From: an uncultured Flavobacteriales bacterium
GTDB lineage: Bacteria > Bacteroidota > Bacteroidia > Flavobacteriales_G > Salibacteraceae
NCBI GenBank assembly: GCA_937121175.1
Contig: CAKZKD010000003.1
Span: 186,001-250,000, forward strand
Direction of reading: 5' to 3'
DNA length: 64,000 nucleotides
Both the position numbers and the translations under genes were made by a program. Below are positions 43,165 to 54,664 of the stretch, in pieces. A model generated the notes under the pieces. It saw nothing but the letters and a program-made list of their open reading frames with translations, had not been told where the DNA came from and made no database searches. Numbering within the stretch: the stretch's first letter is position 1; each line of letters opens with the position of its first letter.

Positions 43165-43249
43165 GGAGAATTGGCAGAGTGGTCGAATGCGGCAGTCTTG
43201 AAAACTGTTGACTGTAACAGGTCCGGGGGTTCGAATCCCTCATTCTCCG
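43165..43249 (+). tRNA. tRNA-Ser(TGA)
   Basis: An 85-nt class II tRNA: acceptor GGAGAAT/ATTCTCC, D-arm with GAGTGGTCGAATGCGG, anticodon loop CTTGAAA giving TGA, long variable arm, and T-arm with GGTTCGAATCC. The three bases after the discriminator G are CCA. It reads UCA and related codons. A damaged partial copy follows about 60 nt downstream. Confidence 0.95.
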
Positions 43250-43260
43250 CCAAAGTTTTA

Positions 43261-43292
43261 AAAGGGTCTTCCTAAACGGAAGGCCCTTTTTT
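43261..43292 (+). terminator. rho-independent terminator after tRNA-Ser(TGA)
   Basis: Twelve-base stem from AAAGGGTCTTCC and GGAAGGCCCTTT (one U-G pair), five-base loop, followed by further T residues. Confidence 0.9.
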
Positions 43293-43306
43293 GCTTTAAG
43301 GAAATG

Positions 43307-43381
43307 CGGGTGAGAACCCGGGGTTCGTGCCGGAGTGAAACGGAGACGTGTAGCAGAGCGAAACCATCCCTCATTCTCCGC
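43307..43381 (+). pseudogene. tRNA-Ser 3' half with an insertion in the T-loop
   Basis: This stretch resembles the 3' end of the tRNA-Ser(TGA) just upstream. GGGGTTCG (43320-43327) matches the 5' side of the T-arm, then 38 foreign bases (43328-43365) follow, then ATCCCTCATTCTCCGC (43366-43381) matches the 3' side and acceptor exactly. The insert holds GAGTGAAAC and GAGCGAAAC, an imperfect direct repeat. In front, CGGGT/ACCCG (43307-43320) forms a hairpin with a GAGA tetraloop. No 5' half or anticodon is present, so it cannot be a tRNA. Confidence 0.7.
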
Positions 43382-43400
43382 TCTAGTTTTAAAAGGGTCT
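43366..43400 (+). repeat. second copy of a 35-bp direct repeat (first copy 43235-43269)
   Basis: Two copies 131 bp apart, each 35 bp with three adjacent mismatches (positions 17-19). The first covers the tRNA-Ser T-arm 3' side, acceptor stem, CCA and start of the terminator stem; the second is the end of the damaged tRNA copy. Repeats of a tRNA 3' end can mark an old integration site or unequal exchange. Confidence 0.85.
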
Positions 43401-54434: not shown

Positions 54435-54549
54435 GTTTCAAAATTGAAAGAGGCATTGAAAAAATTGAAACAAAAAATGTGACCGAGCAGAGACTTCACC
54501 ATTTCGATTTAATCTTTAGAAAAAAAATCTCGCCGATTGAGTGCAAAAA

Positions 54550-54581: not shown

Positions 54582-54591
54582 AAAAAAAATG

Positions 54592-54664
54592 TGACCTGGC
54601 TGAGGCTCGAACTCAGGACCCTCTCCTTAAAAGGGAGATGCTCTACCAACTGAGCTACCAGGTC
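54592..54664 (-). tRNA. tRNA-Lys(TTT)
   Basis: On the minus strand a 73-nt tRNA: acceptor GACCTGG/CCAGGTC, D-arm TAGCTCAGTTGGTAGAGC, anticodon loop CTTTTAA giving TTT, T-arm with GAGTTCGAGCCTC. CCA is not encoded. Confidence 0.96.

Follow-up and report, generated by a model that had tools for sequence, protein, structure and literature searches.

Broken tRNA ends lying behind intact tRNA genes are usually taken for the scars of integrases or are ignored. In Escherichia coli, the rttR repeats include a piece of the 3' end of tRNA-Tyr. SegB of phages T4 and T6 has been described as a free-standing GIY-YIG homing endonuclease which cuts within tRNA genes (PMC13096335). The same source gives RAWTSGAAC as the enriched motif of the phage T6 enzyme (23 of 83 sites), reports tandem amplification of the tRNA together with segB through recombination and cites inefficient donor cutting for SegB-like enzymes (PMC13096335). 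The reverse complement of this motif, GTTCSAWTY, would by our reading correspond to the tRNA T-loop.

The window analysed here is a 64,000-nucleotide stretch (positions 186,001 to 250,000 of contig CAKZKD010000003.1) of the genome of an uncultured Flavobacteriales bacterium (G000). It carries an intact tRNA-Ser(TGA) gene at 43165-43252 (ARAGORN; Rfam RF00005, 58.9 bits), the 3' end of which is repeated downstream; all features of this unit lie on the forward strand. Copy 1 of the direct repeat (43235-43269) comprises the 3' strands of the T-stem and acceptor, the trailer and the start of the terminator. Copy 2 (43366-43400) holds the same elements, with its T-stem and acceptor 3' strands at 43366-43381. 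The two 35-nt copies are spaced 131 bases apart and are 91% identical (32 of 35 positions, three mismatches). The description of a broken tRNA-Ser copy in the initial annotation was exact. Terminator 1, seen in the sequence as AAGGGTCTTCC-TAAAC-GGAAGGCCCTTTTTT, spans 43262-43292, and the GAGA-loop hairpin that had been reported in front of the broken copy is present at 43307-43320 (CGGGT-GAGA-ACCCG). Within the broken copy, CCGGGGTTCG (43318-43327) represents the T-stem 5' strand and the opening bases of the T-loop. The 38 foreign bases said to interrupt the T-loop were likewise found, as a non-tRNA insert at 43328-43365 which directly follows GGGGTTCG (43320-43327) and replaces the remaining T-loop; TTCGA is absent from 43296-43384. 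A 9-base internal repeat noted in the insert (GAGTGAAAC/GAGCGAAAC) does exist, but its significance was rejected as it occurs at chance level (GAGYGAARC is expected 1.5 times in DNA of the window's size and was found twice).

The tRNA-Ser repeat exceeds chance, since no other direct-repeat family occurs in the 900 bp that were analysed and since, in four genomes, the tRNAs' own 3' ends scored higher against their own downstream DNA than did swapped 3' ends, a comparison in which tRNA clusters cause some high scores on both sides. Second copies of the tRNA's own 3' end were identified behind Met, Asn, Leu, Val, Asp, Lys, Arg, Gln, Trp, Thr and Phe genes in this genome and its relatives. Within this genome, tRNA-Met (L063), tRNA-Phe (L070) and tRNA-Asn (L067) are followed by full or partial copies of their own 3' ends approximately 60-180 bases downstream. 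A probable decayed unit, separate from that of tRNA-Ser, lies within the window behind tRNA-Lys (54591-54664, reverse strand) at 54479-54534 on the same strand (GGCGAGATTTTTTTTC ... GTCTCTGCTCGGTCAC), where GTCTCTGCTCGGTCAC and the tRNA-Lys 3' end are alike at 12 of 16 positions. Two further arrangements were observed in this genome. The tRNA-Asn gene (L067) is followed by two tandem hairpin units (TTGGACGAGYAGAGTCCAAGAGG) that contain T-stem sequence and represent a third insert type, also seen in congener G002 (L099). Downstream of tRNA-Arg(CCT) (L074), a broken copy resembling tRNA-Arg carries the palindrome CCCGCCTGTCGGTAGGCAGGG before its anticodon arm.

These broken copies form a family in which the core of the T-loop is replaced by 25-40 bases. 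Most units of the relatives share one order, consisting of an arm, GAGAAGTTTATCCYGA, an inner hairpin, AA(G) and finally the resident tRNA's own T-stem and acceptor 3' strands. This shared insert was found behind Met, Leu (several), Val, Asp, Lys, Arg, Trp, Thr and Gln genes, and with a diverged motif behind Asn. The motif GAGAAGTTTATCCYGA had initially been chosen from units in four genomes, and its search across 395 genomes of the phylum, judged from named loci and from the sequences to be Bacteroidota, therefore serves as an independent test: the exact 16-mer occurs 18 times (reversed control, 0) and is followed by a tRNA 3'-end copy in 17 of these, the remaining occurrence being in apparent coding sequence. 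Furthermore, among 25 distinct units an average of 5.2 of the 7 arm positions pair with the unit's own tRNA, in its T-stem 3' strand and two bases of the loop, compared with 4.06 after shuffling of arms between units. None of 5000 such shuffles paired as well, and this register was the sole standout among the five tried. Inverted copies of tRNA 3' ends showed no general enrichment. The window's insert resembles the family motif weakly (alignment P of 0.13 against GAGAAGTTTATCCYGA, and 0.037 for the orthologue in G002); the likeness is carried by GAGACGTGTAGC (43343-43354), which resembles the family motif GAGAAGTTTATC at 9 of 12 positions. The window's unit is assigned to the family by its anatomy and its genomic neighbours.

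A tyrosine-integrase history, with the tRNA 3' end serving a prophage or island as attB and a displaced att copy remaining once that element was lost, would explain why the repeat, like att cores, starts in the T-arm and extends beyond the tRNA, and some relatives' tRNA-Ser genes are seemingly followed by integrative elements. We nevertheless consider this history quite improbable for the window's unit. Units of the family recur behind many tRNAs at approximately 64-150 bp (a few hundred bp where a GIY-YIG ORF is included), share an insert motif between different tRNA species and have the core of the T-loop destroyed by 25-40 replacing bases, and the window's insert does not resemble the scar of an integrase-type island. 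The ORF list shows no integrase gene adjoining the window's unit and no large element between the repeats, and the phage and plasmid collections yielded no match to the element; carriage by a phage or plasmid was rejected on the latter result. As a separate observation, the DNA behind tRNA-Ser(TGA) in G019 (L040) and G026 (L041) resembles the end of an integrative element, and this gene may also be a normal attB site.

Several units occur as tandem arrays, with repeat units of 72 or 64 bases for Trp, 83 for Val, 105 for Leu and 108 for Gln, and several arrays contain GIY-YIG genes. Local duplication with repair errors, such as slippage or template switching at hairpins, could, with no dedicated nuclease, copy the 3' ends of tRNA genes and introduce common palindromes. 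Such a process is compatible with the Met (L063) and Phe (L070) units, in which the terminator is duplicated too, with inserts that are plain palindromes (e.g. TCCCGATAGCTATCGGGA) and with the arrays, which suggest unequal recombination. It would not be expected to place one 16-base motif behind different tRNAs in different families, nor GIY-YIG genes within the units, and is regarded as unlikely.

The tRNA-Ser site was compared among congeners. An orthologous unit is present behind tRNA-Ser beside dnaE in G002, with 84% identity over approximately 43296-43375, whereas the DNA downstream of the unit gives no convincing alignment with the window. In this orthologue the tRNA-like 3' end is decayed, and the terminator varies in loop and stem. 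The dnaE-tRNA-Ser junction is thus occupied in G000 and G002; it is empty in G001 and G003, where a second tRNA 3'-end copy was not found at this junction, and the difference is one between species of the same genus. The initial annotation had named uniqueness and lack of conservation as signs of a single chance event; the insert shows neither, with an orthologue in a congener and a like architecture behind many tRNAs. Tandem duplication of the whole tRNA followed by decay is an insufficient explanation, given the conservation of the insert from one species to another and the shared motifs at other tRNAs. The T-stem of the resident tRNA-Ser was observed to be GGGGG/CCCTC at the occupied sites (L033/L034) and GAGAG/CTCTC at the empty sites (L051/L052), a difference that might relate to nuclease resistance or to 3'-end replacement, or might be due to chance. 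Among Flavobacteriaceae, a tRNA-Ser unit is retained in four genera (Kordia, Allomuricauda, Muricauda and Subsaxibacter) in another style, with different loops between the arm and the tRNA-Ser 3' end.

This retention, the identity of the insert between two species next to DNA that cannot be aligned, and the T-arm-like pairing conserved across units speak for a small RNA or processing element that is maintained and arises when transcription passes the tRNA terminator, much as with E. coli rttR behind tRNA-Tyr. Such a role is rather improbable given the empty sites of two congeners and the decayed tRNA-like 3' end in G002. A small structured RNA, one of the readings initially offered, also lacks support from the fold of the region of the broken copy, which is no better than that of shuffled sequences (z = 0.17), and from Rfam, where tRNA is the only family matched at the gathering score. 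Two of the initial readings endure in combination, that of a dispersed tRNA-derived repeat and that of a mobile-element scar, the latter apparently not of an integrase-type island.

Small GIY-YIG ORFs were identified inside units at tRNA-Asp in G004 (tandem), tRNA-Met in G029 and G003, tRNA-Val(TAC) and tRNA-Leu(CAA) in G008 and tRNA-Lys in G078, and three of the unit-borne proteins match PF01541 (E ~1e-15). Among the small GIY-YIG genes listed for G000, G002, G003 and G008, 9 of 14 lie no more than 200 bases from a tRNA, where approximately 0.1 would be expected by random placement (counts made by hand, with at least 14 genes in total); further small GIY-YIG genes in these genomes are not near tRNAs. 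The clearest case is the tRNA-Lys unit of G078, composed of an intact tRNA-Lys, the ORF and then a tRNA copy in which the anticodon arm is altered and GGTTCGA has become GAGAAGTTTATCCCGATGAAATCGGGAA. Several ORF-bearing units have a broken copy with a palindrome in the anticodon arm and a retained T-loop. A different arrangement from these downstream units was seen at tRNA-Pro(GGG), tRNA-Val(GAC) and tRNA-Ala (L290, L291, L295), where GIY-YIG ORFs lie directly upstream of the tRNA, that of L295 terminating within it. A literature search covering few subscription journals returned no description of such GIY-YIG units beside the tRNA genes of bacteria.

Since broken copies occur behind many tRNAs, often arrayed with small GIY-YIG genes, they can be read as footprints of a selfish nuclease element that targets tRNA genes. 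We put at about even the chance that the window's locus is a small, ORF-less footprint, decayed in part, of a selfish cassette which targets tRNA genes and is widespread in Bacteroidota; the family and its anatomy are observed, whereas both the nuclease mechanism and the descent of the window's copy from such a cassette are inferred. In favour stand the occupied and empty tRNA-Ser alleles, the second 3'-end copies behind other tRNAs, the shared 16-mer, the pairing of the arms, the GIY-YIG genes in units and near tRNAs, and the precedent of SegB. The full cassette would consist of an intact tRNA, its terminator, a small free-standing GIY-YIG gene and a partial copy of the same tRNA in which a hairpin replaces the T-loop (or the anticodon arm). 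Its nuclease is predicted to cut tRNA genes at a loop, chiefly at the near-universal T-loop sequence GTTCGA. Units would then be inserted, amplified or shrunk as the break is repaired from an occupied allele, or unequally by way of the short tRNA 3'-end repeats. The incoming unit would supply an intact tRNA 3' end, and the displaced one, its loop destroyed, would no longer be a tRNA or offer a cutting site. Units like that of the window would arise when recombination between the repeats removes the ORF; loop cutting, repair from occupied alleles and unequal recombination could together account for full units, arrays and ORF-less units.

Several observations count against the cassette. The window's locus has no GIY-YIG ORF nearby in the ORF list and its insert bears only a weak family likeness, the intact tRNA retains the presumed target, and the GIY-YIG genes upstream of some tRNAs fall outside the model. 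A single cutting site cannot account for all units, given the anticodon-arm lesion and the T-loop kept in several of those that bear an ORF. The broader proposal is held more tentatively, at somewhat short of an even chance: that selfish tRNA-homing cassettes are widespread on Bacteroidota chromosomes, have a GIY-YIG nuclease that targets the near-universal T-loop (GTTCGA), can enter almost any tRNA gene, carry a replacement 3' end that spares the tRNA and mark their visits by a displaced 3' end in which a conserved hairpin insert stands in for the T-loop. Here the broken tRNA ends make up a family, with an insert common to tRNA species, arms that match the resident tRNA and sometimes a nuclease gene inside. 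The cassette, if real, would show how a single type of selfish nuclease could spread across many tRNA genes, and the occupied and empty tRNA-Ser sites of one genus would provide ready alleles for a direct test.

When compared with known systems, the units resemble the attL and attR sites of integrases in tRNA genes in that the tRNA 3' end is duplicated from the T-arm on, but they are approximately 100 bp long, no integrase was seen and the core is destroyed by the insert. The transcribed repeat region of tyrT/rttR (tyrV-rttR in E. coli K-12) likewise lies directly downstream of a tRNA gene. It differs in being confined to a single tRNA locus, in lacking the GAGAAGTTTATCC insert and in having no GIY-YIG gene, and the window has no Rfam match to the rttR family. 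SegB belongs to phages and the units described here to chromosomes; T-loop-replaced tRNA copies are not described for SegB in the consulted passages of its account, and the window's own unit has no ORF. SegB shares with the family a GIY-YIG protein encoded beside tRNA genes and tandem repeats of tRNA and nuclease, and the cassette, if confirmed, would be its chromosomal counterpart.
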